Assembly (NCBI GenBank): GCA_018698795.1
Contig: JABIPG010000048.1
Location: 1 to 45,704, forward strand
Source: Rhodospirillaceae bacterium
GTDB lineage: Bacteria; Pseudomonadota; Alphaproteobacteria; Rhodospirillales; Casp-alpha2
DNA: 45,704 nucleotides
Direction of reading: 5' to 3'
Shown: positions 2,287 to 35,253 of the stretch, in pieces
Position numbering within the stretch: position 1 is the first letter of the stretch
Layout: the number at the start of each line of letters is the position of its first letter
Program-made: the position numbers and the translations under genes
Notes under the pieces: model-generated
Seen by the model: the letters and a program-made list of their open reading frames with translations, nothing else
Told to the model about the DNA's origin: nothing
Database searches by the model: none

Positions 2287-2291
2287 AAGAC

Positions 2292-4737: not shown

Positions 4738-4769
4738 GGGTTGCGGTTGTGCGTGCTTGGTGCATGATC
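4738..4769 (+). repeat. Upstream copy 2 of duplicated GMC leader
   Basis: Partner of 2255-2286 (29 of 32 bases identical by eye), ending six bases before the start codon of the second GMC gene. Confidence 0.75.
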
Positions 4770-4774
4770 GGCGG

Positions 4775-13888: not shown

Positions 13889-15064
13889 CTAGTCTTCCAA
13901 GCCGGCGTAGTATTCCTGCAAGACTTTGACCACTTCCGGTCTGGAGAATTCGGGCGGGATTTCCTCACCTGCGGACAGCATGCGGCGCTGTTCGGTGCCG
14001 GAGACCTGAATTTGGTCTTCCTTACCGTGCGGGCAGGTCTTGGCCGTGGCCATGCCGTAGCACTTCACGCAATAGAAGGTAATGTCGATTTTCAGCGGGC
14101 GCGTGGTCAGGCGTTCGGGCCCGACCTCGTCGAAAATATGATGCGCATCGAAGGGGCCGTAGTAGTCACCGACACCGGCATGATCGCGCCCGACAATCAG
14201 GTGCGAGCAGCCATAGTTTTGGCGGATCAGGGCATGGAACAAGGCCTCGCGCGGGCCGGCGTAGCGCATCTCAATGGGATAGCCCGCTTGGATCACGGTG
14301 CCGGGGCGGAAGTAGTTATCGATCATTGCCTGGATGGCCTCGGTCCGCACATCGGCCGGAATGTCGCCCGGCTTCAATTTGCCCAACACTTGGTGAATAA
14401 ACACACCATCGGTCACCTCGGCGGCGATCTTGACCAGATACTCGTGGCTGCGGTGCATGGGATTGCGGGTCTGGAACGCTGCGACCTCAGACCAGCCTTT
14501 CTCCGCGAATTGAGCGCGTGATTCGTTCGGGCGGACGTAAAGGTCTCCAAACATCGAGGGGAACTCACCCTCGTCGAGAACCGCTACCGGGCCCGCGAGG
14601 TTGATCTCGCCTTGGTTCATGACCTTTTCGACGCCCGGATGCGCCATGTCGGTCGTGCGGAATACATGGTCGCATTCCAGCGCCTTGTCGGGCGCGTATT
14701 TTTCCGTGACCCGCATGACCGCCATGATGCGACCGTTTTCGCTGTCCACCAGTGCCACTTCTTCTTCATCATGGATGCTGTCGGCCAGCGCCTTGTCGGC
14801 TGACAGCGTTACGGGAATCGGCCAAAACAAGCCGCTGGAGAGGGTCATGTCGAGGCAAGCGCCACGCCAGTCGGCTTCGCCCATAAATCCGTCCAGCGGC
14901 GTATAGGCGCCCATGGAGAGCATTAAAACGTCCGAGACCTCGCGGCTGGTCATCGGAATTTTCTTCAGGCCCTCAGCGCGTTTCAGCTCTTCGGCGCGTT
15001 CGGCTTGCGGCGCCAGCAGGGGTTTCAGTGTTCCACCGCCGTGCGGCTCAACCAGTCTCGACAT
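13889..15064 (-). CDS. sat: Sulfate adenylyltransferase (ATP sulfurylase), dissimilatory type
   Basis: 391 residues. It has the nucleotide-binding motif QTRNPMH (198-204) and GRDHAG (292-297), both standard for homo-oligomeric ATP sulfurylases, plus C332, C335 and C344 (CVKC...TC), a Cys group seen in the dissimilatory forms. In sulfur oxidisers the enzyme works in reverse: APS plus pyrophosphate gives ATP and sulfate in the cytoplasm. It diverges from aprM-aprB-aprA across 418 bases, which supports the APS pathway role. The ATG at 15064 has GAGAG about 8 bases upstream. Confidence 0.95.
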
Positions 15065-15482
15065 GTCATAACTCTCGTTTGTTAAGGTGTGTGGGACGTA
15101 TCATTCGCTACCCTTTTTAGCAAAAGGTTTGCGCTTGGCACCATCATTAATTACAATTTATTGAATATATTGTGGGTGATCTCATATGAACCAGCTGTTT
15201 TTATGAGATTGGCTCTACAATATGCATTTTTTGGTTTGAATTGTCCCAATAAGTGTTTTTTTGGTTTGTTTCACGCCGGGCCTATGGTAGGCACACAGTG
15301 AGAATGTGATGATCGGTCAACGAGAGTGGAGGGGTATCCCTACCTCTCTAAATTTCAGTTTTCAAAGGCAATTGATTTTTAAGATTGCAAAACGAATGTT
15401 CGCATATATTCTATTTTGTGAAACTGTCTTAAATTTGTCGATTATCAACCGATAGACCTATTGGCATCACGGGAGATTAAAG
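15065..15482. promoter_or_regulatory. Divergent sat / aprM control region
   Basis: An AT-rich 418-base interval with no credible gene; an ORF at 15089-15301 has no ribosome-binding site or family. It holds an 8-base inverted repeat ATCTCATA/TATGAGAT (15179-15186 and 15202-15209), two copies of TTTTTTGGTTTG spaced exactly 30 bases apart (15227 and 15257), and CATATATTCTA (15403-15413), which recurs before the second soxW gene. Promoters for both directions must lie here, but I cannot place -35 and -10 boxes with confidence. Confidence 0.6.
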
Positions 15483-16325
15483 ATGTTTGCCAGCAATCCG
15501 TTCGCTGAACTCGCGACAACCATCCCGCCCTCAGCAATGCAGGCTTACGTCATCTTGATGGCGATCCTGGTCGTTGGTGGCACGGTGCTGGACATGATCC
15601 ACAAGAAAAGCGCCAAATATTTTTTTGAAAAAACGAAATCTGCCGAAGCCTCGCGAGAGCGCGTGCTTGGCGGTGGCGAGAAAGTCGGGATCGCCATTCA
15701 GACCGTGGCGGAGGATGTTTTGACCTCTGCTGAGTTCTGCAATCCCAAGCGCCGCATTTCACATCTCTTCACCATGTACGGCTTCATCATATTCCTTATA
15801 TCGACGATCGGCTTGGTGTTTGGGTATACCGGAAAAACCGCTCCTGGCATCGTATCGCAGCTTTGGCACTTAGGTGCGGCGATGGTTTGCTTCGGTGGCT
15901 TTTGGTTCTGGTTCTTTATTCGCGTCGACGTCGCCGCCGAGGGTAACCCTTGGTACCGGATCGTGCGCGCGGACATGTTCATTCTGTCGTTGCTCGGCAC
16001 CACCACTTTCGGGCTGCTCTGGTCGCTGACACTCGCAGGCGGAGGCGCCTTGAACGCCCTGTTCCTGGGGTTGTTCCTGGTTGCCAGCACGGTGCTGTTC
16101 GGTGGCGTTATGTGGTCGAAGTTCGCGCACATGTTCTTCAAGCCCGCAGCGGCTTTCAACAAACGGGTAATCAAGGCGGACGGCTCGCGGGAAAACCTGC
16201 CTGAGATCGGCGACCTGACGGATCCTGAATTGCAGAAAAAGTTCCCCGATATCCCTCAATACATGGGCGCCAATCCACCCAATATGGGCCTCGGTATTAA
16301 GCGCGAGCAGCCGCGGCACTACTAA
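15483..16325 (+). CDS. aprM: AprM, membrane anchor of adenylylsulfate reductase
   Basis: 280 residues with about five to six membrane helices (for example AYVILMAILVVGGTVLDM near 21-38, GFIIFLISTIGLVFGY near 100-115, and further ones to about 215) and a soluble C-terminal tail. The overall form resembles NarI/HdrE-like quinone-interacting proteins. It lies directly before aprB and aprA, the arrangement described for AprM in sulfur oxidisers, where it is thought to pass electrons from AprBA to the quinone pool. A GGGAG site precedes ATG 15483. Confidence 0.88.
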   Translation: MFASNPFAELATTIPPSAMQAYVILMAILVVGGTVLDMIHKKSAKYFFEKTKSAEASRERVLGGGEKVGIAIQTVAEDVLTSAEFCNPKRRISHLFTMYGFIIFLISTIGLVFGYTGKTAPGIVSQLWHLGAAMVCFGGFWFWFFIRVDVAAEGNPWYRIVRADMFILSLLGTTTFGLLWSLTLAGGGALNALFLGLFLVASTVLFGGVMWSKFAHMFFKPAAAFNKRVIKADGSRENLPEIGDLTDPELQKKFPDIPQYMGANPPNMGLGIKREQPRHY

Positions 16326-16368: not shown

Positions 16369-16851
16369 ATGCCTACTTTTGTTTACATGACCCGATGCGA
16401 TGGGTGTGGGCACTGCGTTGATATCTGCCCATCCGATATCATGCACATCGATAAGACTTATCGACGCGCCTACAATATCGAGCCCAACATGTGCTGGGAG
16501 TGTTACTCCTGCGTGAAGGCCTGCCCGCAGCATGCCATTGATGTTCGCGGCTACGCCGATTTTGCCCCGCTGGGCCATAGCGTCCGCGTGGACCGTGATG
16601 AGGAAAAGGGTGTCATCGCCTGGCGGATCAAGTTCCGCAACGGCAAAAAAGAAATGAACCTTCTGGCGCCGATCACCACCAAACCCTGGGGCAGCGGCAC
16701 GCCGCAACTCAGGGATGTCGAAGGCCCCACCCAGGAAATGCGTGATAGTGAGTTGCTGTACAACGAACCCAAGTACATCCGCTTCGATGACGGCGGCCTG
16801 CATACCTTGGAATCGAATGGCCTCGAGATGAAGAAGGGCGTGTATTACTGA
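16369..16851 (+). CDS. aprB: Adenylylsulfate reductase beta subunit
   Basis: 160 residues. Two complete [4Fe-4S] motifs are visible: C10, C13, C16, C20 and C42, C45, C48, C52, each followed by Pro as in ferredoxins. A C-terminal tail of about 70 residues embraces AprA in known structures. The iron-sulfur clusters carry electrons from the FAD of AprA to the membrane partner AprM. The stop shares one base with the aprA ATG, so the two are translationally coupled. Confidence 0.96.
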   Translation: MPTFVYMTRCDGCGHCVDICPSDIMHIDKTYRRAYNIEPNMCWECYSCVKACPQHAIDVRGYADFAPLGHSVRVDRDEEKGVIAWRIKFRNGKKEMNLLAPITTKPWGSGTPQLRDVEGPTQEMRDSELLYNEPKYIRFDDGGLHTLESNGLEMKKGVYY

Positions 16852-18719
16852 TGGCTTACAAAACGATCACAGAAGACAACATCGATATTCTGGTCGCCGG
16901 TGCTGGCCTTGGTGGCACGGGCGCGGCTTTCGAAGCCCGGTTCTGGGGCCAAGACAAGAAAATCGTTATTGCCGAGAAGGCCAACATCGACCGCTCCGGT
17001 GCTGTTGCCCAGGGGCTCTACGCGATCAACTGCTACATGGGCACCCGGTTCGGCGAGAACAACCCGGAAGACCATGTGCGGTATGCGCGTATCGACTTGA
17101 TGGGCTTGGTGCGCGAAGATCTGTTGTTCGACATGGCGCGTCACGTGGATTCCACGGTGCACCAGTTCGAAGACTGGGGCCTGCCGCTGATGAAGGACGA
17201 GAAAAAAGGCACCTATTTGCGTGAGGGCCGCTGGCAGATCATGATTCACGGCGAATCCTACAAGCCCATCGTGGCCGAGGCCGCCAAGAAGTCGGCCGAC
17301 AAGGCATTCAACCGTATCTGTGTCACCCATTTGCTGCTCGACGAAGCCAAGGAAAACCGCATTGCCGGTGCCGTGGGCTTCAACGTGCGCACCGGCGACT
17401 TTCATGTCTTCAAATCCAAAACGGTGGTTTGCGGCGCCGGTGGAGCGTCGAATATCTTCAAGCCGCAGTCCACGGGTGAAGGTGCCGGCCGGGTCTGGTA
17501 CGCGCCTTGGTCGTCCGGTTCCGCTTACGGCCTGATGATCAATGCCGGCGCAAAGATGACTCAGATGGAAAACCGCATCGTGTTGGCGCGGTTCAAGGAT
17601 GGTTACGGCCCGGTGGGCGCGTACTTCCTGCACCTCAAGACCTATACGCAGAATGCCTACGGCGAAGAGTATGAGTCCAAATGGTTCCCTGGTCTCCAGG
17701 AGATGGTCGGGAAGGAATACCTTGATCCGGAGGAGTCGCACCTGACTCACCGGCCGATTCCAACCTGTTTGCGTAACCACGCATTGATCAATGAGATCAA
17801 CGCCGGTCGCGGTCCGATCCACATGGTGACAATGGAAGCCTTTCAAGACCCGCATCTCGAAGAGATCGGCTGGCACAACTTCCTCGGCATGACTGTCGGT
17901 CAGGCCGTGCTGTGGGCCGCGACGGACGTCGACCCCAAGAACGAAAACCCAGAACTGACGACGTCCGAGCCCTACGTCATGGGATCGCACGCAACCGGTA
18001 GCGGCGCATGGTGCTCGGGGCCTGAGGATGTTTCCCCGCCCGAATACTTCTGGGGCTACAACCGCATGATGACCGTCGAAGGTCTGTTCGGTGCCGGTGA
18101 CGCCGTCGGCGGTACGCCGCACGCGTTCTCGTCGGGGTCATTCACCGAAGGGCGTCTGGCCGCCAAGGCCGCTTGCCGCTACATCGACGACGGCAAGGCC
18201 GAGGGCATCAAAGTCTCCGCCAAGCAGATCAACGATCTCAAAGAACAGGTCTTCAAGCCGATGGAGCACTACAAGACCTATCGCAATGAGATCGTCGCCG
18301 GCGAGGTCAACCCGCACTACATCAACCCGCGCCAAGGCCTCGACCGTCTGCAGAAGCTGATGGATGAGTACTGCGGCGGGGCGACGGTCAACTATATGAC
18401 CAACGACAAACTGCTGAGCATCGGCCTGAAGAAGCTCAAGATCATGGAAGAAGATCTTGAGAAACTGGCCGCCAGGGACACCCACGAATTGCTTCGTGCG
18501 TGGGAGTTGAAGCACCGTCATCGCACATCCGAGTGCGTGACGCAGCACACGCTGTTCCGCAAGGAAACCCGTTGGCCTGGCTACTATTATCGTGGCGATG
18601 CCATGAAGCTGGACGACGACAACTGGCACGTGCTGACGGTTTCGCGCCGTGATCCGGAGACCGGTGAATACACGATGGAGAAAGCGCCGTGTTATCACCT
18701 GGTCGGTGAGGGCGAGTAA
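16851..18719 (+). CDS. aprA: Adenylylsulfate reductase alpha subunit
   Basis: 622 residues, normal for AprA. It opens with the FAD-binding loop AGAGLGGTGAAFEARFW and EKANIDRSGAVAQGLYAINC, both typical of AprA, and has a succinate-dehydrogenase-like flavoprotein fold. In sulfur oxidisers AprBA converts sulfite plus AMP to APS in the cytoplasm, giving two electrons. Together with aprM, aprB and the divergent sat it completes sulfite oxidation with substrate-level ATP formation. Two hairpins follow its stop. Confidence 0.97.
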   Translation: MAYKTITEDNIDILVAGAGLGGTGAAFEARFWGQDKKIVIAEKANIDRSGAVAQGLYAINCYMGTRFGENNPEDHVRYARIDLMGLVREDLLFDMARHVDSTVHQFEDWGLPLMKDEKKGTYLREGRWQIMIHGESYKPIVAEAAKKSADKAFNRICVTHLLLDEAKENRIAGAVGFNVRTGDFHVFKSKTVVCGAGGASNIFKPQSTGEGAGRVWYAPWSSGSAYGLMINAGAKMTQMENRIVLARFKDGYGPVGAYFLHLKTYTQNAYGEEYESKWFPGLQEMVGKEYLDPEESHLTHRPIPTCLRNHALINEINAGRGPIHMVTMEAFQDPHLEEIGWHNFLGMTVGQAVLWAATDVDPKNENPELTTSEPYVMGSHATGSGAWCSGPEDVSPPEYFWGYNRMMTVEGLFGAGDAVGGTPHAFSSGSFTEGRLAAKAACRYIDDGKAEGIKVSAKQINDLKEQVFKPMEHYKTYRNEIVAGEVNPHYINPRQGLDRLQKLMDEYCGGATVNYMTNDKLLSIGLKKLKIMEEDLEKLAARDTHELLRAWELKHRHRTSECVTQHTLFRKETRWPGYYYRGDAMKLDDDNWHVLTVSRRDPETGEYTMEKAPCYHLVGEGE

Positions 18720-22462: not shown

Positions 22463-23125
22463 ATGAGCCTGATCCTTTACGACCTCTGTGGTGCCGACGA
22501 TTTGCGGTTCAGCCCGTTTTGCTGGCGCACGCGATTGGCACTGATGCACAAGGGGCTGGAATTCGAAACCGTCCCGGTGCGCTTTACCGAAAAACACAAA
22601 ATCGCATTTTCCGAACAAGATAAGGTTCCGGTCATTGATGATGGCGGCACCGTGGTTTGCGACAGTTGGGCCATCGCGGAATATCTGGAGGATACCTATC
22701 CCGACCATCCGGCGTTGTTTCCGGGTGCGCGCGGGCGACGCTATGCCAAAATGACCAACGACTGGACCGACAAATTGAATCCGCTGATCTTGAAATCGAT
22801 TATCGTCGATGTGCATGACAGCTTGGACCTGCCCGACCAAACCTATTTCCGTGGATCTCGCGAAAAACGTTTCGGCAAAACGCTGGAAGCGGTTCAAGCG
22901 GACCGGGAAAAGACGCGCGCGCAATTACGCGAAGGCATGGCCTCTATGCGGGCACACTTGATGGATGGACCGTTCGTTGGTGGTCAGGCACCGGCTTACG
23001 GAGATTTCATTGTATTTGGGTCGCTGCGATGGGCTCAACAATGCAGTGATTTTCCGATGCTCGCCAATGACGATCCGATCGCGGATTGGTATGGCCGTGT
23101 CGCCACAACCATGGGCGTCAATTGA
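22463..23125 (+). CDS. Glutathione S-transferase-family protein
   Basis: 220 residues. A thioredoxin-like N-domain carries SPFCWRTRLALMHKGLEFE, the cis-Pro motif KVPVIDD and CDSWAIAEYLE, followed by an all-helical C-domain (from about residue 90). It resembles the beta-etherase/GST group. Cys19 in SPFC could be the thiol-acting residue. It begins 15 bases after the DsrE-like gene, so both may be co-expressed; glutathione conjugation of a reactive sulfur species is a possible reason for the pairing, but this is inference. Confidence 0.85.
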   Translation: MSLILYDLCGADDLRFSPFCWRTRLALMHKGLEFETVPVRFTEKHKIAFSEQDKVPVIDDGGTVVCDSWAIAEYLEDTYPDHPALFPGARGRRYAKMTNDWTDKLNPLILKSIIVDVHDSLDLPDQTYFRGSREKRFGKTLEAVQADREKTRAQLREGMASMRAHLMDGPFVGGQAPAYGDFIVFGSLRWAQQCSDFPMLANDDPIADWYGRVATTMGVN

Positions 23126-23211
23126 TTGTCGCCGACAGGGTGAAAAGTTTAGAGACATCCATATTCGATTTTGGTAAAGTGTTTTTGCATCCGGAAATCA
23201 GGGAGATGGAT

Positions 23212-23628
23212 GTGAAAAACGTTCTATATGCCATCGTTGTTGGAATACTGCTTATCGCGCGACCAGATCTAGCTGTGTCGGCGGAGTTGGTTATGTTCGA
23301 GCAAGACACGTGCGAGTGGTGCGAGGTCTGGCACGAAGAGGTCGGCGTGGTTTACGCGAAAACCGACGAAGCCCGCGCAGCCCCGTTACGCCGTATCGAT
23401 ATCTTTGAGACGCGACCGGCCGACCTCAAGGAGGTCCGGCGCGTTCAGTTCACGCCGACGTTCGTGTTGATGGACGAAGGGCGAGAGGTTGGACGGATTC
23501 TCGGCTATCCGGGCGAGAGCTTTTTCTGGGAGTTGCTGGGGCAGATGTTGAAAAAGCTGCCGGCCGAATCGCGGCGCGCCTGTTTGACCCCGAAACAGTT
23601 CATTGCCCAAGGAGAGAAGACATGCTGA
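23212..23628 (+). CDS. soxS: SoxS-like periplasmic thioredoxin
   Basis: About 138 residues. GTG 23212 is favoured because GGGAG lies 6 bases before it and the N-terminus then reads MKNVLYAIVVGILLIARPDL, a signal peptide; ATG 23206 is the alternative. The mature domain has a CEWC redox motif (C34, C37), cis-Pro in FTPTFVLMD, and YPGESFFWELLGQML, all as in SoxS proteins that reactivate the SoxYZ carrier. The C-terminus adds two cysteines (RRACLT and the terminal Cys). It overlaps the next gene (ATGCTGA). Confidence 0.8.
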   Translation: MKNVLYAIVVGILLIARPDLAVSAELVMFEQDTCEWCEVWHEEVGVVYAKTDEARAAPLRRIDIFETRPADLKEVRRVQFTPTFVLMDEGREVGRILGYPGESFFWELLGQMLKKLPAESRRACLTPKQFIAQGEKTC

Positions 23629-24125
23629 AGCGCACGTTGACGGCTTTCATTTTGAGCGGATTTATTGCTGGCAATGCTGTTGCTGCCGACGATGAGGCGC
23701 TGGTTTCATTCAAGGTGATGACACCTGAGACGGCCATGGAATTGGCCCAGGCGACTTTGGCCGATTGCCGCAAACGAGGGTTCCAGATTGCCGTTGCTGT
23801 GGTCGACCGTTTTGGTGTCATGCAGGTGATGATACGTGACCGATTTGCTGGCCCGCACACGCCGGAGACGGCGCGCCGTAAAGCCTGGACCGCAGTTAGC
23901 TTCCGTACCGATACATCTTCGATGGTGGCGCTTACAAAAGCAGGTGAGCCACAGGCAGGCGTGCGGCAAGTGCCCAATGCGTTGATGATTGGTGGCGGTG
24001 TACCGGTCGAAGCCGGCGGATCAATGGTCGGGGCGATCGGCGTTTCCGGTGCGCCTGGCGGTGATCTGGATGACGCATGCGCGCGCGTCGGTATTGAGGC
24101 TATTGATGATAAGTTGGCATTCTAA
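23622..24125 (+). CDS. Exported GlcG/HbpS-like heme-binding family protein
   Basis: 167 residues with a signal peptide (TLTAFILSGFIAGNAVAA). The rest is a GlcG/HbpS domain: METALELAQATLADC-type start, VAVVDRFGVMQVMIRDRFAG, the ETARRKAWTAVSF motif and GGGVPVEAGGSMVGAIGVSGAPGGDLDDACA near the end. Some family members bind heme or aid oxidative-stress sensing. The ATG is inside the stop of the SoxS-like gene, so the two are translated together; such pairs are seen in sulfur-oxidation loci. The exact role is unknown. Confidence 0.85.
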   Translation: MLKRTLTAFILSGFIAGNAVAADDEALVSFKVMTPETAMELAQATLADCRKRGFQIAVAVVDRFGVMQVMIRDRFAGPHTPETARRKAWTAVSFRTDTSSMVALTKAGEPQAGVRQVPNALMIGGGVPVEAGGSMVGAIGVSGAPGGDLDDACARVGIEAIDDKLAF

Positions 24126-24136
24126 TATTTACGAAA

Positions 24137-24165
24137 TGTAAATGTACAATGAGATATTTTACATT
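24137..24165. promoter_or_regulatory. Inverted repeat before the ArsR-type regulator
   Basis: AATGTAAA (24135-24142) and TTTACATT (24158-24165) form a perfect 8-base dyad around the 20-nt element TGTAAATGTACAATGAGATATT (24137-24158). A closely related element lies at 25062-25081. The position just upstream of the regulator start suggests an autoregulatory operator. Confidence 0.6.
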
Positions 24166-24201
24166 CGATTTGGACTATTATAGGATTGCAGGAGCATTCT
24201 T

Positions 24202-24627
24202 GTGGAAACATTGATCGCTGGGGGGAGTTGCCGACCGGCGAAATGTGCTGCGGAAAGCGGTGGCGAAGGGAAGGTAAATGTGGACGCGCTCGATACATCG
24301 CTGATGAGCAATGCCAAGCGGGCAAGTGAATTTCTCAAGGTTATGGCCAATGAGAACCGTTTGATCATTCTGTGTGCATTGGCACAGGGTGAAAAAAATG
24401 TTGGGGAACTGGAAGATATTCTGGGCATCCGCCAACCGACACTGTCGCAGCAACTAAGCCGGCTGCGCGCCGAGGACGTCGTTGTAACCCGACGTGAGTC
24501 CAAGCAAATCTATTATCGAATCGCCAGTGATGAAGCGATTGAATTGATCGGTCTCATGTACGATTTGTTCTGCGATAAAGATATGGATATGACCGCCACC
24601 CCCGTGGTGTCTGCCAGCGTCGCCTGA
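24202..24627 (+). CDS. ArsR-family persulfide-type sensor/repressor (SqrR/BigR/SoxR-like)
   Basis: 141 residues starting at GTG 24202 with GCAGGAGC upstream. The winged HTH reads LKVMANENRLIILCAL, GIRQPTLSQQLSRLRAE and RRESKQIYYRI. Cys58 (LILC position) and Cys124 (YDLFC) match the two cysteines that form a tetrasulfide bridge in SqrR and BigR when reactive sulfur is present. An extra N-terminal stretch carries Cys10 and Cys15 (GSCRPAKC), not part of the classical pair. It should bind DNA when reduced and release it when sulfur is available, making it the likely controller of this cluster. Confidence 0.88.
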   Translation: METLIAGGSCRPAKCAAESGGEGKVNVDALDTSLMSNAKRASEFLKVMANENRLIILCALAQGEKNVGELEDILGIRQPTLSQQLSRLRAEDVVVTRRESKQIYYRIASDEAIELIGLMYDLFCDKDMDMTATPVVSASVA

Positions 24628-24654: not shown

Positions 24655-24984
24655 CTATTCCGATTTTTGGCCGATGACGTAGGTCAGGCAAAAAACCCGT
24701 AAGCACGACGCCATATTGTTCCGGTCAACGGGGCAATGGTGATTGATTTGGGTGATCAGTACCGGGACGGAGCATTCTTCCGTCTCCGCCACTTCTTCCA
24801 GTACTTGCCAAAATGCTGCTTCAAGCCGGATTGTCGTCGAGTGGCCGTGAATCCGAAGTGATTTGCGGACCGGCGAGAAATCCAACGCACCCTCACCATC
24901 TTGCATGGCAAATGCGCGCTGCATTGGCGATACGCAACTTGCGTACGCGCTATCGGTCTGACGAGTACCGGTTGATTTATGCAT
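24655..24984 (-). CDS. Ribbon-helix-helix domain protein
   Basis: Up to 109 residues. The C-terminal 70 form a ribbon-helix-helix domain: RKSLRIHGHSTTIRLEAAFW (strand then helix), TEECSVPVLITQINHH, and NMASCLRVFCLTYV. This pattern is typical of a small RHH group common in alphaproteobacteria. The N-terminal 30 residues look unrelated, so the real start may be an internal ATG (24924 or 24906). RHH proteins bind DNA as dimers. It sits beside the ArsR-type regulator and opposite fadL, so it may co-regulate the sulfur genes. Confidence 0.7.
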   Translation of the reverse strand: MHKSTGTRQTDSAYASCVSPMQRAFAMQDGEGALDFSPVRKSLRIHGHSTTIRLEAAFWQVLEEVAETEECSVPVLITQINHHCPVDRNNMASCLRVFCLTYVIGQKSE

Positions 24985-27164: not shown

Positions 27165-27188
27165 CATATAGCAAATTACGCATGTGTC
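27165..27188. promoter_or_regulatory. Candidate operator between soxW copy 1 and the unknown exported protein
   Basis: CATATAGCAAATTACGCATGTGTC aligns without gaps to CATATATTCTAAATTTCGCATGTATG at 33030, keeping the eight-base spacing between the half-sites. CATATAG recurs at 27188-27194. It lies in the 115-base divergent promoter region. Confidence 0.45.
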
Positions 27189-27235
27189 ATATAGTATCAA
27201 TTGCAATCCTGTGAATGTGTGGAGGGAAAGGCCGG

Positions 27236-28003
27236 ATGGGGTCTGTTGCAAAATACTATAAGTCATCGGTTCGGGCGTTGATTTTGGGCCTGATGGTTCT
27301 ATTCAGTGCGCTCTCAGGGGCGGCCAGTGCCGGTTCCGCTTCTGACCCGGCACCAGCGTTCCACAACGCCGTATCGGACGCCTACGGCCACTACCGAGAG
27401 GCGTTTTTCTATCTACGTCGCGGCAATGCCATGACGGCGGCATTCGAATTGGAAGCCTTGGTGGAGAAATGGCACGCCTTAACCAAGGTGCATGGGTCAA
27501 ATCCGCCGCCCCCCTATGCCACGGATGCACAGTGGGGCACGGTCCTTAAACAGGTTGGCAGCATTGCCGAGAAGGCGTTGGAAGCCGCGGTTAGCGGTGA
27601 ATCCAAAGCTGCATACGACGAACTGCAGCCGGTGCGCGGGATGCTCCGGGATTTGCGTGAGCGAAACGGCGTCAGGCTGTTTCGTGATGATGTGGAGGAC
27701 GCCAACGCGACCTTCCGGGAACTGTTCAAGTTCCGCCGGAACCCGCCGGATTTCGACAATCCCCAGTCCGTCGCATCGTTGCGCAAAAATCTCGCCGCTA
27801 CCATTTCGGCCTATCAGGCCTGCCTGGATCAAGCGCCAGCGGATGTCGCCAAGGATGAGCAGTTCCAGCGCTTGGTAACCGATAGCCTGGAAGTTCTGAA
27901 GCGCATGAACTTGGCGATTGAAGCGAAAAGCGAGCTTCGAGTGATCAATATTCTGAGGCGCGTGGTGTCGTCCAACAACATCCTGTGGATGCGGTTCGGT
28001 TGA
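27236..28003 (+). CDS. Unknown exported helical protein in the sox cluster
   Basis: 255 residues starting at ATG 27236 after GGAGGGAAAGG. A signal peptide (SSVRALILGLMVLFSALSGA) precedes a mature part that seems all-helical with repeated heptad-like segments (AFHNAVSDAYGHYREAFFYL, AFELEALVEKWHALTKVHG, RNEFRELFKF). There is one Cys in the mature chain (AYQACLDQ) and no CxxCH heme motif. It diverges from soxW and converges with ccdA. I do not recognise a family; position and export suggest a periplasmic accessory to thiosulfate oxidation. Confidence 0.75.
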   Translation: MGSVAKYYKSSVRALILGLMVLFSALSGAASAGSASDPAPAFHNAVSDAYGHYREAFFYLRRGNAMTAAFELEALVEKWHALTKVHGSNPPPPYATDAQWGTVLKQVGSIAEKALEAAVSGESKAAYDELQPVRGMLRDLRERNGVRLFRDDVEDANATFRELFKFRRNPPDFDNPQSVASLRKNLAATISAYQACLDQAPADVAKDEQFQRLVTDSLEVLKRMNLAIEAKSELRVINILRRVVSSNNILWMRFG

Positions 28004-28787: not shown

Positions 28788-30476
28788 TCAAATCCCCTTG
28801 ATGCGGATGTTTTTGTTTTCCGGCACCGTGACCACCTTCTTCTTGCTGATGTAGTCGGAGACCAGATCGTAAACCGGCGGGCCTTCGGTGCCTTCGTTGA
28901 CCGATGCCCAACCCGAAACCACGTACTCGCGGCTGGGATCGATGGGTTTGCCGGTTTTCACCAACGTCATGTCCGTGATCCGCGACCCGATGGGCTTATG
29001 AATGTCGATGCTGTAGGCCATGCCGCCGACGCGCACCATATCGCCGCCCTGCTGGTAGTAGGGATCAGTGTTGAACAGGTTGTCGGCAACGTCTTCCAAG
29101 ATGTCTTTCAACAACTTGCCGGTCATCTTTGAGCGGTAGGCGTTGGGGTAGGTAATGGCAGTCTGGTGATAGACGTGATCCACCGTGATATCGGCGCCTG
29201 GCGGCAAGCTGGAGCCCCAGCGGAAACCGGGTGAGAGCGATATCTCGGCGTCGCGTTCTTCGATCAAGGCCTGGCAGATCAGATCGTCGAAAGTGCCGTT
29301 GAAGTTACCGCGTCGGTACAAGAGAGAATCGGTCTTGCCGAGAACGCGGTCGAGTTCTTTGGCGTGCGGGGCCCGGATTTTGGTGATTAACGCTGCCATT
29401 TCGGGGTCCGGTGTAATCGCGTCGGAAAAAACCGGAATCAGACTGAAACGATAATCCGCGACCTGTTTGTTTTTGACGTCTAAATCAAGCCGGGCCAGGA
29501 ACTTGCCGTGTGAGCCCGAAGCGACCAGCAATGTTTTGCCGACTTTTACCACGTGCGGCAGCGCGTCGTGGGTGTGGCCTGTGAGGATCACGTCGATGCC
29601 TTTGACGCGGCTGGCCAGTTTGCGGTCGACGTCAAAGCCGTTGTGGCTCAACAGAACGATCAGCTCTGCACCGGCGGCACGGGCGGCATCGACACGTTTT
29701 TGCACCAGTTTCTCGCGGATACCAAACGACCATGTGGGAATCATGTAGCGCGGGTTGGCAACCGGCGTGTAGGGGAACGCCTGGCCGATCATGGCGATTT
29801 TGACGCCGCCGCGTTCGAACATTTTGGTCGATTCGAACACGGTTTCTTCCCACTCCGTATCCACGACATTGCCGGCCAGGAAGGGAAAATTTAGGGCATC
29901 TTTCAGCTCTCCGACGCGCTCGGTGCCGTAGGTAAACTCCCAGTGCGCCGTCATCGCATCAACACCGAGCGCATTCATCACGTCGACCATGTCCTGGCCC
30001 TGCGTCTTCAGCGCCGTGTAGGAGCCCTGCCAGGTGTCGCCGCCATCGAGGAGGAGGGTGTTGTTCGGACGCTCGGCACGGATCGCTTTGACCAACGTCG
30101 CCATGCGGTCCAGGCCGCCGACACGGCCGTAGGTGCCAGCCAGGGACGAGAAATCTTCGCTGGTCAGCGCATAGGCCTCCGGCGACTTGGCTTTCAGGCC
30201 GAATTTTTCAAGGGCGGCCTTACCGGTCAGATGGGGCACCAGCCCTTTGGCTTCGCCGACGCCGACGTTGATGGATGGCTCGCGGAAGAACAGTGGCACC
30301 AATTGCGCGTGGCAGTCGGTGAAATTCAGCAGCGTCACTTGCCCAACGGGGTCAAATTTCAGCAATTGATCTTGGGTGATGGTTTGGCGGGCGGCGGCGC
30401 TGGAAAGCGCGCCGGGGGCACCGGTCAAGACGGCCGTAGCGGCTGCGACTTGCAAAAATTCTCGACGATCTAACAC
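28788..30476 (-). CDS. soxB: SoxB, thiosulfohydrolase
   Basis: 562 residues, starting at GTG 30476 behind GGGGAGG. A twin-arginine leader (DRREFLQVAAATAVL) exports the folded metalloprotein. Metal motifs of the 5'-nucleotidase-like fold are seen in NFTDCHAQ (D54, H56), DGGDTWQGS, LSHNGFDVD and GHTHDALP. SoxB cleaves sulfate from cysteine-S-sulfonate on SoxY using two Mn ions in the periplasm. An intrinsic terminator lies between soxA and this gene, so its level may be set separately. The usual HWEFTYG segment is intact. Confidence 0.96.
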   Translation of the reverse strand: MLDRREFLQVAAATAVLTGAPGALSSAAARQTITQDQLLKFDPVGQVTLLNFTDCHAQLVPLFFREPSINVGVGEAKGLVPHLTGKAALEKFGLKAKSPEAYALTSEDFSSLAGTYGRVGGLDRMATLVKAIRAERPNNTLLLDGGDTWQGSYTALKTQGQDMVDVMNALGVDAMTAHWEFTYGTERVGELKDALNFPFLAGNVVDTEWEETVFESTKMFERGGVKIAMIGQAFPYTPVANPRYMIPTWSFGIREKLVQKRVDAARAAGAELIVLLSHNGFDVDRKLASRVKGIDVILTGHTHDALPHVVKVGKTLLVASGSHGKFLARLDLDVKNKQVADYRFSLIPVFSDAITPDPEMAALITKIRAPHAKELDRVLGKTDSLLYRRGNFNGTFDDLICQALIEERDAEISLSPGFRWGSSLPPGADITVDHVYHQTAITYPNAYRSKMTGKLLKDILEDVADNLFNTDPYYQQGGDMVRVGGMAYSIDIHKPIGSRITDMTLVKTGKPIDPSREYVVSGWASVNEGTEGPPVYDLVSDYISKKKVVTVPENKNIRIKGI

Positions 30477-30528
30477 TTCAGAGTCCTCCCCTTAAGGTTC
30501 CCTGCAAAAAAAAACGATGAGGCTAGGC

Positions 30529-30563
30529 AAAAAAAGGGGGATGCGAATCGCTCCGCATCCCCC
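30529..30563 (-). terminator. Intrinsic terminator between soxA and soxB
   Basis: On the minus strand GGGGGATGCG and CGCATCCCCC form a perfect 10-bp stem around an eight-base loop, followed directly by seven T. It lies 20 bases after the soxA stop and points in the direction of transcription of the operon. It should stop most transcripts before soxB or act as an attenuator. Confidence 0.9.
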
Positions 30564-30583
30564 GATTTTGTATCCGTAATGAT

Positions 30584-31402
30584 TTAGTTCCGGACGGCCG
30601 GGGTTTCCACCGGAAGGCCCCGTCCACGCCAGGCCACGTAAAGCTCAAGGTTCGTGTATTCGTCAGAACCATACTTCAGCGGTTGCGCGCGGATGTTTTT
30701 ATTGCAGCCACGGAAGCGGCGGTGCACGGAACCCGGCTTCTGCCATTTCAGGCGGTAGGTCGGGAAGCCGTTAATCTGCCCCTGCGTCAGCAGGTTGGCA
30801 CGCGCATACTTGCCGGGATTGTCTTCGTGGCAATGCTTGCACGCCATATCGAGGGCACCGCGACGCTGGTAGTAGAACTCCTTGCCTTTGGCAAAAAACT
30901 GCGCGGCTTCGTCATCAATGCTGACGTTAACCGGCATGCCGCGCGACTGATGGCGCACGAACATGGTCATTTGCAAAAGCTCGTTGGATTCGTACTTCCA
31001 AGCCTTGGCCTGCATGCGCTCGGTGCGGCAGGTGTTGATCTGCTGCTCGAGATTTTTCAGCTTCTTGATTTTGGCATCGTATTTCGGATAGGCCGCAGCA
31101 ACGCCCTTCATGGTTTCGAAGGCATCGTTGTGGCACGACTGGCATGATTTACCAGCTTTGCCGTCAACTTCTTCCCACAACTGCCCGCCATCTTCGACCC
31201 AGATCATCGCAGGATTTTCGAAATCGTCATCCTGGATCGCCTGTGTTTCTTTGATGGCGTAGGTGTAGCCGCTGCGCCTGTCGTCGACGACCATTTTACC
31301 CTCTTTCGGGTCGTTGTGGTCTGCGTAGGCGGTTGAGGCGAACGTCGCTGCGATCATAGCCGCGGCGGCGATCGATAGTGCTCCCAGATAAGCCTTTTTC
31401 AT
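30584..31402 (-). CDS. soxA: SoxA, diheme cytochrome c subunit
   Basis: 272 residues with a signal peptide (MKKAYLGALSIAAAAMIAAT). Two CxxCH heme sites are visible: C87-C90-H91 and C188-C191-H192, so this is the diheme form. Cys125 (INTCRTERM) matches the distal heme ligand, and Cys233 (RRFRGC) the active-site residue that becomes a persulfide. SoxAX oxidatively joins thiosulfate to the SoxY cysteine. ATG 31402 has GGGGAGATC upstream. The gene follows soxZ. Confidence 0.95.
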   Translation of the reverse strand: MKKAYLGALSIAAAAMIAATFASTAYADHNDPKEGKMVVDDRRSGYTYAIKETQAIQDDDFENPAMIWVEDGGQLWEEVDGKAGKSCQSCHNDAFETMKGVAAAYPKYDAKIKKLKNLEQQINTCRTERMQAKAWKYESNELLQMTMFVRHQSRGMPVNVSIDDEAAQFFAKGKEFYYQRRGALDMACKHCHEDNPGKYARANLLTQGQINGFPTYRLKWQKPGSVHRRFRGCNKNIRAQPLKYGSDEYTNLELYVAWRGRGLPVETPAVRN

Positions 31403-31419
31403 TGTGATCTCCCCTGTGC

Positions 31420-31746
31420 TCACGACACTTTGATTTTGGCGGCTTTCTTGACGGTCTTTCCTTTGTCGTCCGTCCAAGCCATTTCCAAGCTGCCGCTATC
31501 GGCGGCCTTCACGTAGAAGGCCATATACGGATTGGCGGAAACAGCCGGGTGCCAATCGGCAGAGAAAACTTGCTTGCCGTTATACGTGCACACGAACTTG
31601 TTGATGATGTCGCGCGGGATTTTCTTGCCCTTTTTGTTTTTACGCTGACCGGTTTCCATCTTGTGCGAGATCAGAGTCTTTATCAGAAAAGACTCACCCT
31701 TTTTGGCCGACTTCGGGGCCTTTACGCGGGCTTTGGTTTTTGCCAT
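31420..31746 (-). CDS. soxZ: SoxZ, sulfur-carrier partner
   Basis: 108 residues with no signal peptide, rich in lysine at the start (MAKTKARVKAPKSAKKGE). The immunoglobulin-like strands LIKTLISHKMETG, FVCTYNGKQVFSADWHPAVSANPYMAF and the SGSLEMAWTDDKG region match SoxZ. It forms a heterodimer with SoxY and is exported with it by the SoxY Tat leader. It lies 22 bases after soxY and just before soxA. Confidence 0.95.
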   Translation of the reverse strand: MAKTKARVKAPKSAKKGESFLIKTLISHKMETGQRKNKKGKKIPRDIINKFVCTYNGKQVFSADWHPAVSANPYMAFYVKAADSGSLEMAWTDDKGKTVKKAAKIKVS

Positions 31747-31768
31747 TTGTCTAACTCCCTATTGCCGG

Positions 31769-32248
31769 TCAGCCGCCGCAGCCGCCGATGGTGACTTTAA
31801 CTTCGGATTTCGCCATCGTGAACGAGCCATCGCTCATTTCAGCAACAGCAACCACGTTTTGGGTCTTGGCGAGACGAATACGGGTGGACACATAAGCCTT
31901 ACCCGACATCGGCGTGAAATGGAACGAGGCCACTTCCGGCGATGGGTTGCCATCGGCCCAAAGGTGCAGCGCTTTGACGTGGTCGCTGTCCGACATGGGG
32001 CTGTCGACATTGATAGTAATCGGCACCGTAGAGCCGTTTTCGGCGATCTGTGGTGTGTCCATGGCAATCTTGCCACTGGCCGGGGTTTTGCCTCCGGTCA
32101 GTTTATTGATGGCGGCATCAACGGCTTTGGCGTCGGCGAATGCCGGGCCGGCTAGGCTGATACCCATGGCAGCGACGGTGCCGGCACCGAACAGCGAGAG
32201 CAGTTCGCGGCGGCTGACCCGGCGTGCGTCCAAGGTTTTACGGATCAT
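31769..32248 (-). CDS. soxY: SoxY, covalent sulfur carrier
   Basis: 159 residues. A twin-arginine leader (SRRELLSLFGAGTVAAMG, R13-R14) is followed by the SoxY domain, and the chain ends in GGCGG with the carrier Cys157. Sulfur intermediates are carried on this swinging arm through SoxAX and SoxB. Without SoxCD in this window, the sulfane sulfur left on Cys157 must be removed by another route. The gene sits between soxX and soxZ, a usual order. Confidence 0.97.
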   Translation of the reverse strand: MIRKTLDARRVSRRELLSLFGAGTVAAMGISLAGPAFADAKAVDAAINKLTGGKTPASGKIAMDTPQIAENGSTVPITINVDSPMSDSDHVKALHLWADGNPSPEVASFHFTPMSGKAYVSTRIRLAKTQNVVAVAEMSDGSFTMAKSEVKVTIGGCGG

Positions 32249-32278
32249 GGTGTTCTCCTTAGATTTTTGGAATCTTGA

Positions 32279-32743
32279 TTACTTCAAAGTCATCAAGTAA
32301 GCGACCATATCTTCCACGTCTTGCGCAGCGACAACGGTCTTGCCCTTGAACTTCTTCAGAACAGCGGTGTAACCGGTGTTTCTGTAGAATGACGGCATGA
32401 TGGTGTCTTCGTTGACCACCTTCGGGTTGACCAACCGCAAGCGAAGCTCGGCAGCTGAATAACGTGACCCTACGCCGGCCAAATCCGGGCCGATGGTGCC
32501 GTGGAACTGCTGATCCGGTATCGGCATCTTATGGCAGGCCAGGCAATTGCCTTTCTTGCGATGGATGGCCAATTTGCGGCCGTTCTTTGCGTCGCCGGCA
32601 TTGCCGGTCAGCGATTTCGGAATACTGGTTTCATCAACGACTTTTAATGCAACCAGTTTGTCCGCAGCTTTTGCGCTGTCTATGCCAACGGCAAGCGACA
32701 TCGCAACCCCTATGGCCGCAACGGCCAGAGCTTTTAGTGCCAA
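32279..32743 (-). CDS. soxX: SoxX, monoheme cytochrome c subunit
   Basis: 154 residues starting at TTG 32743, which has GGAGGAGGAG in front. The signal peptide ends near SAKAA. One heme site CLACH (C67, C70, H71) and a probable axial Met116 in DTIMPSFYR fit SoxX. With SoxA it forms the cytochrome complex that starts thiosulfate oxidation in the periplasm. It is the first gene of the soxXYZAB-ccdA operon and is read from the 351-base divergent region. Confidence 0.94.
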   Translation of the reverse strand: MALKALAVAAIGVAMSLAVGIDSAKAADKLVALKVVDETSIPKSLTGNAGDAKNGRKLAIHRKKGNCLACHKMPIPDQQFHGTIGPDLAGVGSRYSAAELRLRLVNPKVVNEDTIMPSFYRNTGYTAVLKKFKGKTVVAAQDVEDMVAYLMTLK

Positions 32744-33094
32744 GGTATTTCTCCTCCTCCTGATTTCGCTATCTTATATTCTTCGATAGTCGGCTTCTTC
32801 GATGGTCGGTGGTTTATATTTTATGCCGACAGTCTCGGAAGAAGATAGCGTAAATAAGTTTCCCTGATCGATGCAATCATATTCGAAAATTATAAAACAT
32901 CAAGTGTGAAACCATAATAATTTCGTGGACATGTGAATGCGTCTTAATTTCGTTACATCACAATAATTTGAGCACTCACAATTTCTAACCTGGCGGCTAC
33001 CCATTGCGGTCGTTGCACGAGGCCGTTAACATATATTCTAAATTTCGCATGTATGGCGGGGCTGATGATCAGTCCGTAAAGGGAGGATTCTCAT
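32744..33094. promoter_or_regulatory. Divergent soxX / soxW-2 control region
   Basis: AT-rich interval of 351 bases without a gene. Near soxX it has a direct repeat CTTCGATAGTCGG / CTTCGATGGTCGG (about 32780-32808). Near the second soxW it has CATATATTCTAAA-TTTCGCATGTATG (33030-33055), a partial palindrome whose halves match at 10 of 13 positions. CATATATTCTA is identical to 15403-15413 upstream of aprM. Promoters for both sox units must lie here; exact boxes are not clear. Confidence 0.6.
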
Positions 33095-33724
33095 ATGAAA
33101 TCGCGTGTTTTCTTGATTGCGCTGGCGTTGTTGATGGGCTTGGCCATTGCGCCAAATCATGCTCAGGCGGAAGCGAAAAAACTGCCCATGGTAGAGGCCA
33201 ACGAGTCGGGCCTGTACGCTCAGCCATGGTTCAAGGAGACCTTCCTTGATTTGAAAGAGGACATGGCTGAGGCGAAAGCCGAAGGAAAGCAATTGGTTGT
33301 GTTTTGGGAGCAGAAAGGTTGCCCCTACTGCCGCGAGACCCATGCCGTCAACCTGCGCAAACCCAAGACCGTTGACTACATTAAGAAACATTTCTTTGTC
33401 GTGCAGCTGAATTTGTGGGGCGATCGCGAGGTGGTGGATGTGGACGGTACGCCGACAACCGAAAAGAAACTCGCCCGTAAACATCGGGTGCAGTTCACGC
33501 CGACAATTCAGTTCTTCCCCCAAGACCCACCGAAAGAGGCTGGTGTCTCAAGCCGCGACTATGAGGTATGGCGGCTGATGGGCTATTGGAAGCCGTTCCA
33601 TTTTCATCACACCTTCCAGTACGTGCACGAGAAGGGCTACGTTTCGCAGCCCAATTTCCAGCGCTGGCTGTCAGCGGTGGCCGAGGAATACCAGGCGCAG
33701 GGAAAAGAGATCAATCTTTGGTGA
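33095..33724 (+). CDS. soxW: SoxW-like thioredoxin, copy 2
   Basis: 209 residues with a Sec-type signal peptide (MKSRVFLIALALLMGLAIAP). The redox motif CPYC (C76, C79) lies in EQKGCPYCRETH and the cis-Pro motif in QFTPTIQFFPQ, both nearly identical to copy 1 at 26473. The C-terminal part GYWKPFHFHHTFQYVHEKGY is also shared. The export signals differ (Sec here, Tat-like in copy 1), so the two may serve different partners of SoxV. It diverges from soxX and ends at a GC-rich hairpin. Confidence 0.88.
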   Translation: MKSRVFLIALALLMGLAIAPNHAQAEAKKLPMVEANESGLYAQPWFKETFLDLKEDMAEAKAEGKQLVVFWEQKGCPYCRETHAVNLRKPKTVDYIKKHFFVVQLNLWGDREVVDVDGTPTTEKKLARKHRVQFTPTIQFFPQDPPKEAGVSSRDYEVWRLMGYWKPFHFHHTFQYVHEKGYVSQPNFQRWLSAVAEEYQAQGKEINLW

Positions 33725-33744: not shown

Positions 33745-33770
33745 GGCGGCGAGGGTGTTCACTCGCCGCC
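33745..33770. terminator. GC-rich hairpin between converging soxW-2 and yeeE
   Basis: GGCGGCGAG and CTCGCCGCC form a perfect 9-bp stem around an eight-base loop. It overlaps the end of the yeeE coding region. There is no T-tract, so it is a likely 3'-end stabiliser or weak bidirectional terminator. Confidence 0.6.
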
Positions 33771-34862
33771 GAACATCGCCTTCAAGGCGCCGCCGAAGGA
33801 GCCTTCTTCCAGGTATTTCATGCCATAAACGCCGCCGGCGATAATTGATACCAGCGCAATGAGCGAGCCCACCGCCAGCGTCGACATGCCGGTCAGGCCC
33901 TGGCCGATGGTGCAGCCGAGCGATAGAATACCGCCCACTCCCATTATCGCCGCGCCAATGATATGGCGCACCATGTCGTCGGCATCGTTGAAAGCTTCGA
34001 GGCGAAACTCGCCCGAGGCTTTGGCGGCAATAAATGCGCCGAAGATGACACCGCCGACCACGGCTATGCCGAAGTTGATAGTGGCGCCGGAAAAGGTCAT
34101 CAGGTACTGCAAGCTCTCGCCCACGGGATTGACGAAGGTGAACGAGGCCAAGGGTGTCGGCTCGAAATCATCAAAACCAACAACACCGGTAACATACCAC
34201 GCGGCCGGCACCAGGGCGCCCAGGATCACACCACCGACAATATCACGTTTCGATTCGCGGAACTCGGCACTCTTGAAGCAAAACGCGAGCAAACCCAGAA
34301 CGACGAACGCGAAGACAATCATGCGTGCTGTCTCCGGGGCGATACCAATCAGGGCGGCAAGGATGTCGGGCATGCCTTGCGCCTCCAACCCCGCGGCTTC
34401 CAGGTCCATGTTGGCGGCACTCTCCAGTTCGACGCGCGCCAAGCCGATCAAGCCGCGCACCGTCATGTAGGCGAATAGCCCCAGCACCATGGCTACGACC
34501 AATGATTTTAAGTTGCCTGCACCTAGCCGCACCAACGTCTTGTTGCCGCACCCGCCGGTCATGGTCATGCCGAACCCGAACAGCAAGCCGCCAAGGATCG
34601 CCCCGGCCCAGCCGAAGTTGGTAGTGAGATAAATGGAACTGTTGAGGTCGACCAATTCCGACATGTGCATCAACTGGCTGCCGGTGACGGCGACCGCGAT
34701 GGCCAGCATCCACGAACGGAAGCGATTCCAATCGCCCATAAAAACCATATCTGATATGGCGCCCATGGTACAAAAGTTGGTACGCTGCGCCGTGGCACCG
34801 AAGGCCATACCCAGTACAAAACCGAGACCGGCAATGACCCAAATGATCGGAACGTCTTCCAT
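33759..34862 (-). CDS. YeeE/YedE family thiosulfate transporter (TsuA-like)
   Basis: 367 residues with about nine to ten hydrophobic segments. Three cysteines in repeated motifs are kept: C31 (RTNFCTMGA), C105 (GGCGNKTLVRLG) and C317 (GCTIGQGLTG). These correspond to the cysteines that hand thiosulfate through the hour-glass pore of TsuA/YeeE. The protein would import thiosulfate into the cytoplasm. It diverges from a tusA gene, a usual partner of yeeE. ATG 34862 is chosen because GAGGGG lies upstream. Confidence 0.9.
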   Translation of the reverse strand: MEDVPIIWVIAGLGFVLGMAFGATAQRTNFCTMGAISDMVFMGDWNRFRSWMLAIAVAVTGSQLMHMSELVDLNSSIYLTTNFGWAGAILGGLLFGFGMTMTGGCGNKTLVRLGAGNLKSLVVAMVLGLFAYMTVRGLIGLARVELESAANMDLEAAGLEAQGMPDILAALIGIAPETARMIVFAFVVLGLLAFCFKSAEFRESKRDIVGGVILGALVPAAWYVTGVVGFDDFEPTPLASFTFVNPVGESLQYLMTFSGATINFGIAVVGGVIFGAFIAAKASGEFRLEAFNDADDMVRHIIGAAIMGVGGILSLGCTIGQGLTGMSTLAVGSLIALVSIIAGGVYGMKYLEEGSFGGALKAMFGGE

Positions 34863-34914: not shown

Positions 34915-34936
34915 GTGATTCCACGGCAAGAATCAC
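34915..34936. promoter_or_regulatory. Symmetric operator between yeeE and tusA (ATTC-N8-GAAT)
   Basis: GTGATTC and GAATCAC are perfect 7-base inverted repeats around an eight-base spacer. The core ATTC-N8-GAAT agrees with operators I recall for SqrR-type persulfide repressors. It lies between the two divergent starts and overlaps the likely -35 zone of the tusA promoter. Confidence 0.65.
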
Positions 34937-34948
34937 TTTACAAAAAAG

Positions 34949-34954
34949 TATAAT
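34949..34954 (+). promoter_or_regulatory. tusA: Candidate -10 box of tusA
   Basis: A perfect TATAAT lies 75 bases before the tusA start and 12 bases after the symmetric operator. A canonical -35 is not visible at 17-base spacing (GCAAGA), so the promoter may be weak or activated. Confidence 0.5.
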
Positions 34955-35028
34955 GATATTTTCTGTGCACGGTGATAAACTTTACGTGTGGCGGTTAGAC
35001 CACGCAGTTGAAAGGAAACGGGAACGTT

Positions 35029-35253
35029 ATGGCGACAGAAACTCTCGACGCGAAGGGGCTCAATTGTCCCATGCCGATTATGAAGGCGAAAAAGGCGATG
35101 AAGGGCCTGAGCTCGGGCGATACTTTGGCAATTGAAGCCACCGACCCCGGCTCGGTCAAGGATTTCGAAGCCTTTTGCCGCGCCACCGGCAACGAACTGG
35201 TGGAATCGGGTGAGGACGGCGGAATCTTCAAGTTCCTGCTCAAAAAGGGCTGA
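35029..35253 (+). CDS. tusA: TusA-family sulfur carrier
   Basis: 74 residues. Cys13 in LNCPMPIMKAKKAM is the CPxP motif of TusA-type carriers, and the second half has SVKDFEAFCRATGNEL typical of the fold. TusA moves persulfide sulfur inside the cytoplasm from thiosulfate or rhodanese sources to oxidation enzymes (rDsr or sHdr in sulfur oxidisers). ATG 35029 has AAAGGAAACGGG upstream. It diverges from yeeE, a transporter that likely supplies its sulfur. Confidence 0.93.
   Translation: MATETLDAKGLNCPMPIMKAKKAMKGLSSGDTLAIEATDPGSVKDFEAFCRATGNELVESGEDGGIFKFLLKKG

Follow-up and report, generated by a model that had tools for sequence, protein, structure and literature searches.

A predicted SoxR/SqrR-type operator palindrome before the sulfur oxidation operons of a Rhodospirillaceae bacterium

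Between the divergent soxT/yeeE and tusA genes of a Rhodospirillaceae bacterium lies a perfect inverted repeat, which raises the question of whether this dyad is the control site of a sulfur oxidation regulon or another sequence has that role. The window, i.e. the whole stretch of DNA analysed, comprises 45,704 nt (contig JABIPG010000048.1, assembly GCA_018698795.1; forward strand, 1–45,704) of a 3.57 Mb draft genome that is 83.9% complete and 5.2% contaminated. A preliminary description had grouped the dyad with three looser sequences before other sulfur genes and postulated one persulfide-controlled regulon joining apr, sox and tsu/tus. The dyad is present as described, as are the strings quoted for 15403, 33030 and 27165 (Table 1). 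Comparison with related genomes makes it quite probable, however, that the operator is a different sequence: a 22-bp imperfect palindrome, predicted to be bound by the repressor encoded at 24202–24627 (perhaps shared with a paralogue, SoxR2), which persulfide would release and which would control sox, apr/sat and rDsr or sHdr genes and probably soxT/tusA.

The product of 23206–23628, which we take to be SoxS, has no Pfam match, and the longer ORF at 23086–23628 has no NCBIfam match. Pfam and NCBIfam searches also gave no match for the 262-aa product of 27215–28003, a homologue of which stays beside soxW1 in five relatives (L077, L078, L079, L094 and L099). Genes encoding GMC oxidoreductases are found in tandem at 2274–3932 and 4700–6418, ~0.8 kb apart (PF00732, PF05199).

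Table 1. Sulfur oxidation genes, regulator genes and palindromic sequences of the window.
Feature	Position	Strand	Remarks
sat, ATP sulfurylase	13889..15064	-	TIGR00339 above cut-off
Predicted operator, sat side of the sat–aprM region	15148..15169	.	22.7 bits; 15.6 bits in closest relative (L133)
Predicted operator, aprM side	15405..15426	.	21.8 bits; the 15403 site of the preliminary description; L133 reads TATATTCTATTTTTTGAAACTG
aprM, leads aprMBA	15483..16325	+	label from preliminary description; weak profile matches, none near cut-off; followed by aprB, aprA
aprB, aprA	16369..18719	+	TIGR02060 and TIGR02061 above cut-offs
Predicted operator before soxS-hbpS-soxR (autoregulation)	23160..23181	.	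20.3 bits; also in whole-genome scan
SoxS-like CxxC protein	23206..23628	+	start (ATG) inferred; longest possible ORF 23086-23628
HbpS-like protein, between soxS and soxR	23622..24125	+	PF03928
soxR-like repressor, SqrR/BigR family	24202..24627	+	PF01022; possible starts 24202, 24274, 24304
RHH_4 protein, convergent with soxR	24655..24984	-	PF13467
Fourth site of the preliminary description	27165..27188	.	at best 7.0 bits; unsupported
262-aa protein	27215..28003	+	adjoins soxW1
soxX, soxY, soxZ, soxA, soxB	28788..32743	-	TIGR04485, TIGR04486, TIGR04488, TIGR04490, TIGR04484, all above cut-off
Predicted operator, soxX side (before soxXYZAB and ccdA)	32878..32899	.	23.4 bits, best of the window; also in whole-genome scan
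Predicted operator, soxW2 side	33032..33053	.	21.9 bits; the 33030 site of the preliminary description
soxW2, thioredoxin-like	33095..33724	+	PF13098
soxT/yeeE sulfur transporter	33759..34862	-	PF04143
Perfect dyad GTGATTC-CACGGCAA-GAATCAC	34915..34936	.	between divergent soxT/yeeE and tusA
Weak operator-like palindrome CACTTTACAAAAAAGTATAATG	34934..34955	.	holds TATAAT before tusA; 3 bases common with dyad
tusA	35029..35253	+	PF01206

A palindrome learned from relatives and its places in the window

A divergent soxT–tusA pair occurs commonly in the relatives retrieved, and its intergenic regions were used for motif discovery. Removal of same-organism duplicates (L046, L048, L049, L053, L070) from 32 regions left 27, and 25 were used for training after our own (L016) and that of the closest relative (L017) had been set aside; three regions of more than 400 bases were trimmed to 350. 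Six motif shapes were tried (widths of 18, 22 and 26, each palindromic or not). Without the palindrome constraint the 22-bp run converged on the region of the tusA start codon, the plain 26-bp run had the top likelihood (214.4) with a consensus, TAtCATATTCaATTTTTaTAAAaTGT, representing the same element, and the palindromic 22-bp shape (143.1 in this trial) was chosen for further work. The motif obtained by expectation-maximisation, cATATT(A/C)-N8-(G/T)AATATg (in short form cATATTc-N8-gAATATg), had a gain of 134.6, compared with 35.7–48.8 in 15 dinucleotide shuffles.

The five top matches in the window (20.3–23.4 bits) all stand before sulfur operons (15148, 15405, 23160, 32878 and 33032) and fit an operator learned from other genomes, while the sixth, within soxT, has 13.1 bits. 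Three of the five (15148, 23160 and 32878) are absent from the preliminary description; the other two are its sites at 15403 and 33030, so that half of the family of four proposed there is retained, and the 27165 and 34915 members are not. In shuffle tests of each intergenic region, the top-scoring site is significant for soxX–soxW2 (p 0.001), sat–aprM (p 0.003), gst–soxS (0/1000) and, marginally, soxT–tusA (p 0.046), and not for soxW1–27215 (p 0.44, which leaves the 27165 site without support), hbpS–soxR directly before soxR (p 0.51), RHH_4 gene–fadL (p 0.17) and soxB–soxA (p 0.97). Site 23160–23181 lies 25 bases before the inferred soxS start at 23206, or inside the gene if the longest ORF is used.

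In the soxT–tusA gap itself, the operator-like sequence would be 34934–34955, which is weaker than the other window sites (12.9 bits in the window scan or 12.0 in another, background frequencies being slightly unlike), and not the dyad. Many other relatives carry sequences such as CATATTCGATTTTTGTAAATTG and CACTTTACATTTTTATAAAGTG in this gap, the latter being a better copy of 34934–34955 on the tusA side in L018. The long gap of L038 encodes, as judged by eye, a protein similar to the RHH_4 protein of Table 1. The single regulon proposed earlier is well supported by comparative genomics for apr and sox; for soxT/tusA the support is clear among relatives and weak for the window itself.

Sites in the rest of the genome and before dsr or sHdr in relatives

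A scan of the own genome, a check proposed in the preliminary description, was run with a sequence-only model trained on 21 sites taken from other genomes (12 of them at soxT–tusA, the others at soxW2, soxX, soxS and a single luciferase-like gene). Among 150 scored of 281 candidates it gave six distinct sites with E values of 10 or less. Four of these are before sulfur genes: 23160, 32878, one before dsrA (TIGR02064, 582.9 bits; cut-off 392.9) and one before a soeA-like gene, followed by genes for an Fe-S protein and a DmsC-like protein. The soeA-like gene encodes a molybdopterin oxidoreductase and no curated SoeA model was matched; the operon is read here as putative soeABC. The other two sites precede genes of no established role in sulfur metabolism. 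One (L226:3181–3202 in C112; 19.0 bits) lies 18 bases before an ORF for a DASS anion transporter (TIGR00785, PF00939) and follows genes for ribulose-phosphate epimerase and fructose-bisphosphate aldolase, and the other (L110:1501–1522 in C167) is a perfect palindrome, CATATTCAATTAAACGAATATG, before a PanE/ApbA-like gene without known sulfur role. The genome encodes two more SoxR-like proteins besides that of 24202–24627. In C144 a 22.9-bit site precedes a dsrE2-like ORF followed by a soxR-like gene (dsrE2-soxR2), and in C21 an 18.0-bit site (L224:1624–1645) precedes the third soxR-like gene, which appears by eye to be divergent from RND efflux genes. In the closest relative the matching sites have 25.7 bits (dsrA), 24.7 bits (soeA-like gene) and 27.1 bits (dsrE2-soxR2).

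Upstream regions from relatives, in sets that include the window's own, were searched for sites of at least 18 bits, with shuffle means as controls. Such sites were found before soxX in 6/9 regions (shuffle mean 0.30), soxS in 11/17 (0.05), soxW2 in 13/17 (0.40), dsrA in 9/22 (0.17; 13/22 without), soxR in 7/34 (0.20), aprM in 5/23 (0.57; 18/23 without), soeA in 5/30 (0.33), sat in 1/5 (0.05; 4/5 without) and the 27215 homologue in 1/5 (L078, 19.8 bits; 0.00). The dsrA set has 22 regions from 21 genomes, as L119 is represented twice, the second perhaps through a dsrB match. Counts for tusA (16/35) and soxT (26/47) come from the training locus and have no proof value. No site of this strength was found before soxW1 (0/7), aprA (0/22), soxB (0/6), ccdA (0/6), qor (0/3), fadL (0/2), dsrE-like (0/2), gst (0/1) or hyp132 (0/1). 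None of 100 symmetrically permuted matrices reached the counts for soxX, soxS, soxW2, dsrA, aprM or soxR, and the real count was matched by 2/100 for soeA and 8/100 for sat; soeA is perhaps a member of the regulon.

Genome scans of eight relatives, chosen from 60 (E up to 3; in seven of them 150 candidates were scored out of a larger number), gave 27 matches among the scored candidates, including four training sites (L185, L187, L188, L193). Twenty of the remaining 23 are upstream of sulfur genes, with neighbours read by eye: dsrA (5), aprM (3), soxX (3), soxS (3), an sHdr operon (2) and, once each, sat, soxW2, a soxW1-like gene and dsrE2-soxR2; 13/20 are in promoter classes outside training. 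The three aprM matches are ~370 to 410 bases upstream, with a CoA-transferase-like gene nearer in L201, and the three matches away from sulfur genes (L192, L202, L210) are all from one genome, G011. As the relatives share descent, their counts are not independent. In relatives without dsr, a luciferase-like monooxygenase gene near soxW2 has an operator-like site just upstream (L193:389–1498, identified by PF00296; L187, L188 and L189, identified by eye).

dsrA was found in 21/61 genomes (E 1e-60) and an sHdr-linked DsrE in 8/61 (E 1e-25), and no genome of the 61, some of them incomplete, has both. Identification of sHdr is based on an operon in G033 (L229) encoding DsrE-, HdrC-, FAD- and CCG-domain proteins and a GcvH-like protein, with a lipoyl-synthase-like protein nearby, and on the published operon. 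The palindrome is located 76–136 bases before the sHdr DsrE gene in 8/8 relatives (p up to 0.025; 7/8 with at least 18 bits), and among more distant alphaproteobacteria in 6/11 at p up to 0.05 (2/11 with at least 18 bits). SoxR and sHdrR of Hyphomicrobium denitrificans are reported to bind a fragment before dsrE3C (PMC10451225, PMC12423496) and this binding, together with the palindrome before sHdr, links the motif with the SoxR family independently of the window. The regulon would extend to sat, to dsr or sHdr, to dsrE2-soxR2, to soxS-hbpS-soxR itself and possibly to soe.

The repressor, its candidate ligand sites and other readings

The SqrR-type sensor announced at 24202 by the preliminary description is confirmed as a SqrR/BigR/SoxR-like protein. 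It has an ArsR-type winged helix (HTH_5, PF01022; 48.1 bits, cut-off 22) and matches the BigR equivalog NF040642 at 107.3 bits, below the cut-off of 155. For the C-terminal 116 residues (24277–24627), the best of 12 solved relatives are 6o8k, 13ct/6o8l and 3pqj; entries 6o8k–6o8o, named ArsR family in the structure table, represent SqrR. In the alignment the cysteine stretches LIILCALAQGEK and LFCDKD pair with LMIMCYLASGEK and QFCSGD, respectively, in SqrR. Both cysteines also align with BigR, and in SqrR these are the sensor residues. The SQQL recognition helix aligns with SqrR and BigR, in the latter as the nearly identical QPTLSQQL (3pqj). soxR is in one operon with soxS (23206–24627) in a window that also carries soxXYZAB, the gene context of SoxR, and predicted sites stand before SoxR-type targets, i.e. 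sox (window and relatives) and sHdr (relatives only). Binding, repression and release by persulfide would be expected of a protein of this family. In the E. coli yqaE–ygaV region, footprinted with the related YgaV (PMC9774250), the best site of the palindrome has 15.3 bits (p 0.027), although a slightly higher match occurs elsewhere in the surrounding 6-kb stretch.

If the perfect dyad were instead the main operator and the four sequences quoted earlier its family, its exact SqrR core, ATTC-N8-GAAT (PMC9774250), would be accounted for, as would enrichment of this core in soxT–tusA regions (3/27, i.e. own, L018 and L035; shuffle mean 0.28, reached in 0/300 shuffles). However, the learned motif fits only the L035 copy of these three, the dyad itself scores -17.5 bits, and the core has a single occurrence in the window, where shuffles predict 1.10 (with one mismatch allowed 11, compared with 21.3 predicted), and 35 in the 3.57 Mb genome, where base composition predicts ~29, a chance level that makes it of no use for finding the regulon. 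Perfect 7-N8-7 dyads number six in the window, this one included. When sites are compared across relatives, as had been suggested, the neighbour at 34934–34955 is identical in the closest relative (L017/L046; 22/22), whereas the dyad keeps 16/22 bases, six differing, and its right arm becomes GTTTCAC. With the 27165 member also unsupported, the dyad as control site of the regulon is very improbable, contrary to the earlier proposal. Less improbable, but still unlikely, is an accessory contact in the intergenic gap, bound either with low affinity by the same repressor or by another protein. This would agree with core enrichment and with L018, where a GC-rich-spacer ATTC-N8-GAAT dyad (offset 136) lies exactly midway between two good operators (offsets 93 and 179), 43 bases each side; against it, such a copy occurs in only 2/27 regions, at unlike distances from operators, and the closest relative lacks the right arm. 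A terminator hairpin at the dyad is unsupported because the promoter and terminator scan gave none of either there. The perfect dyad is thus probably not the operator of the regulon and at most an accessory element.

With the 22-bp palindrome as the preferred operator, the choice of ligand can be considered. That the main ligand is the paralogue SoxR2, or that both repressors bind, is possible, if the less likely arrangement: the sites before dsrE2-soxR2 are strong in both the own genome and the closest relative, and in Hyphomicrobium, where SoxR and sHdrR share targets, sHdrR binds all four SoxR-bound fragments (PMC12423496), but the soxS-hbpS-soxR operon itself carries a site and dsrA sites tend to accompany a close soxR homologue. 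In dsr genomes with a soxR homologue of at least 60% identity, a dsrA site of at least 15 bits is present in 7/7, compared with 5/14 of the others (Fisher p 0.007), a comparison with cut-offs chosen after the data had been seen and confounded by kinship; over 21 genomes, dsrA score and soxR identity are only weakly rank-correlated (rho 0.43, p 0.051). Least probable of all is that the motif belongs to another factor, such as the RHH_4 protein, or is an AT-rich promoter element, in spite of the proximity of the RHH_4 gene to soxR, the AT-richness of the sites and the TATAAT within the site before tusA. Permuted matrices of equal composition do not reproduce the soxX, soxS, soxW2, dsrA, aprM and soxR counts (0/100), and RHH_4 was rejected as the cognate regulator as it has no match (E 1e-8) in five genomes that carry the motif (G006, G018, G024, G033 and G040).

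Comparison with known systems and proposed function

SoxR of H. denitrificans, with sHdrR, is like the protein described here an ArsR-type two-cysteine repressor; its targets are sox, soxT1A and the sHdr operon, with several intergenic regions bound (PMC10451225, PMC12423496, PMC11582611). The main texts of these three papers contain no wording on a palindrome, and that of PMC12423496 has no 'consensus', although repeats are marked in Figure S6 of its supplement. In comparison, the targets predicted here go further and include sat, aprMBA, the operon for reverse Dsr and possibly soe. Rhodobacter capsulatus SqrR and E. coli YgaV belong to the same family and recognise the ATTC-N8-GAAT core (PMC9774250), and SqrR structures align with the 24202–24627 product over both cysteines, but the operator proposed here has longer arms (CATATTC), a right half that is often degenerate and an AT-rich spacer, and its predicted targets are lithotrophic sulfur oxidation genes. 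For Bradyrhizobium diazoefficiens, Paracoccus pantotrophus and Pseudaminobacter salicylatoxidans, soxSR and sox genes are described as being under SoxR, and what PMC5748708 relates of these proteins concerns sox genes, without dsr, apr or sat.

Already established are the regulator family with its chemistry and the SqrR core, while the long palindrome and its predicted reach to dsr and apr/sat appear to be new as far as the open-licence literature goes. Regulation of dsr in Allochromatium was reportedly addressed by Grimm et al. in 2010. In titles and opening parts of abstracts of the open-licence literature no ArsR or SoxR regulator of dsr was found, and the consulted portions of papers on Varunaivibrio and Allochromatium name none.

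As a model, in the absence of oxidizable sulfur the reduced dimer would occupy its sites and block soxXYZAB, soxW2, sat, aprMBA and soxS-hbpS-soxR in the window and, outside it, dsrA, dsrE2-soxR2 and perhaps soeABC; soxT/tusA would probably be included. On entry of sulfane sulfur into the cytoplasm, the two cysteines would become bridged by sulfur, as described for H. denitrificans SoxR (PMC10451225), the dimer would leave the DNA and the pathway would be expressed. Such a signal could be supplied through SoxT-mediated import and TusA-mediated handling, in line with what is discussed for SoxT1B (PMC11582611).

The palindrome provides a concrete candidate operator for SoxR/SqrR-type repressors of lithotrophic sulfur oxidizers and a predicted regulator for reverse dsr and apr/sat operons. 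We lean, with some reserve, towards a single SoxR-type repressor (alone or with SoxR2), released by persulfide, that would control the complete pathway from thiosulfate to sulfate in these alphaproteobacteria (rDsr, Apr/Sat and perhaps Soe), with the operator kept while the Dsr or sHdr module is exchanged. If this is true, the supply of sulfane sulfur to the cytoplasm would set expression of the whole chain, and the pathway module, Dsr or sHdr, would be exchangeable under an unchanged switch.
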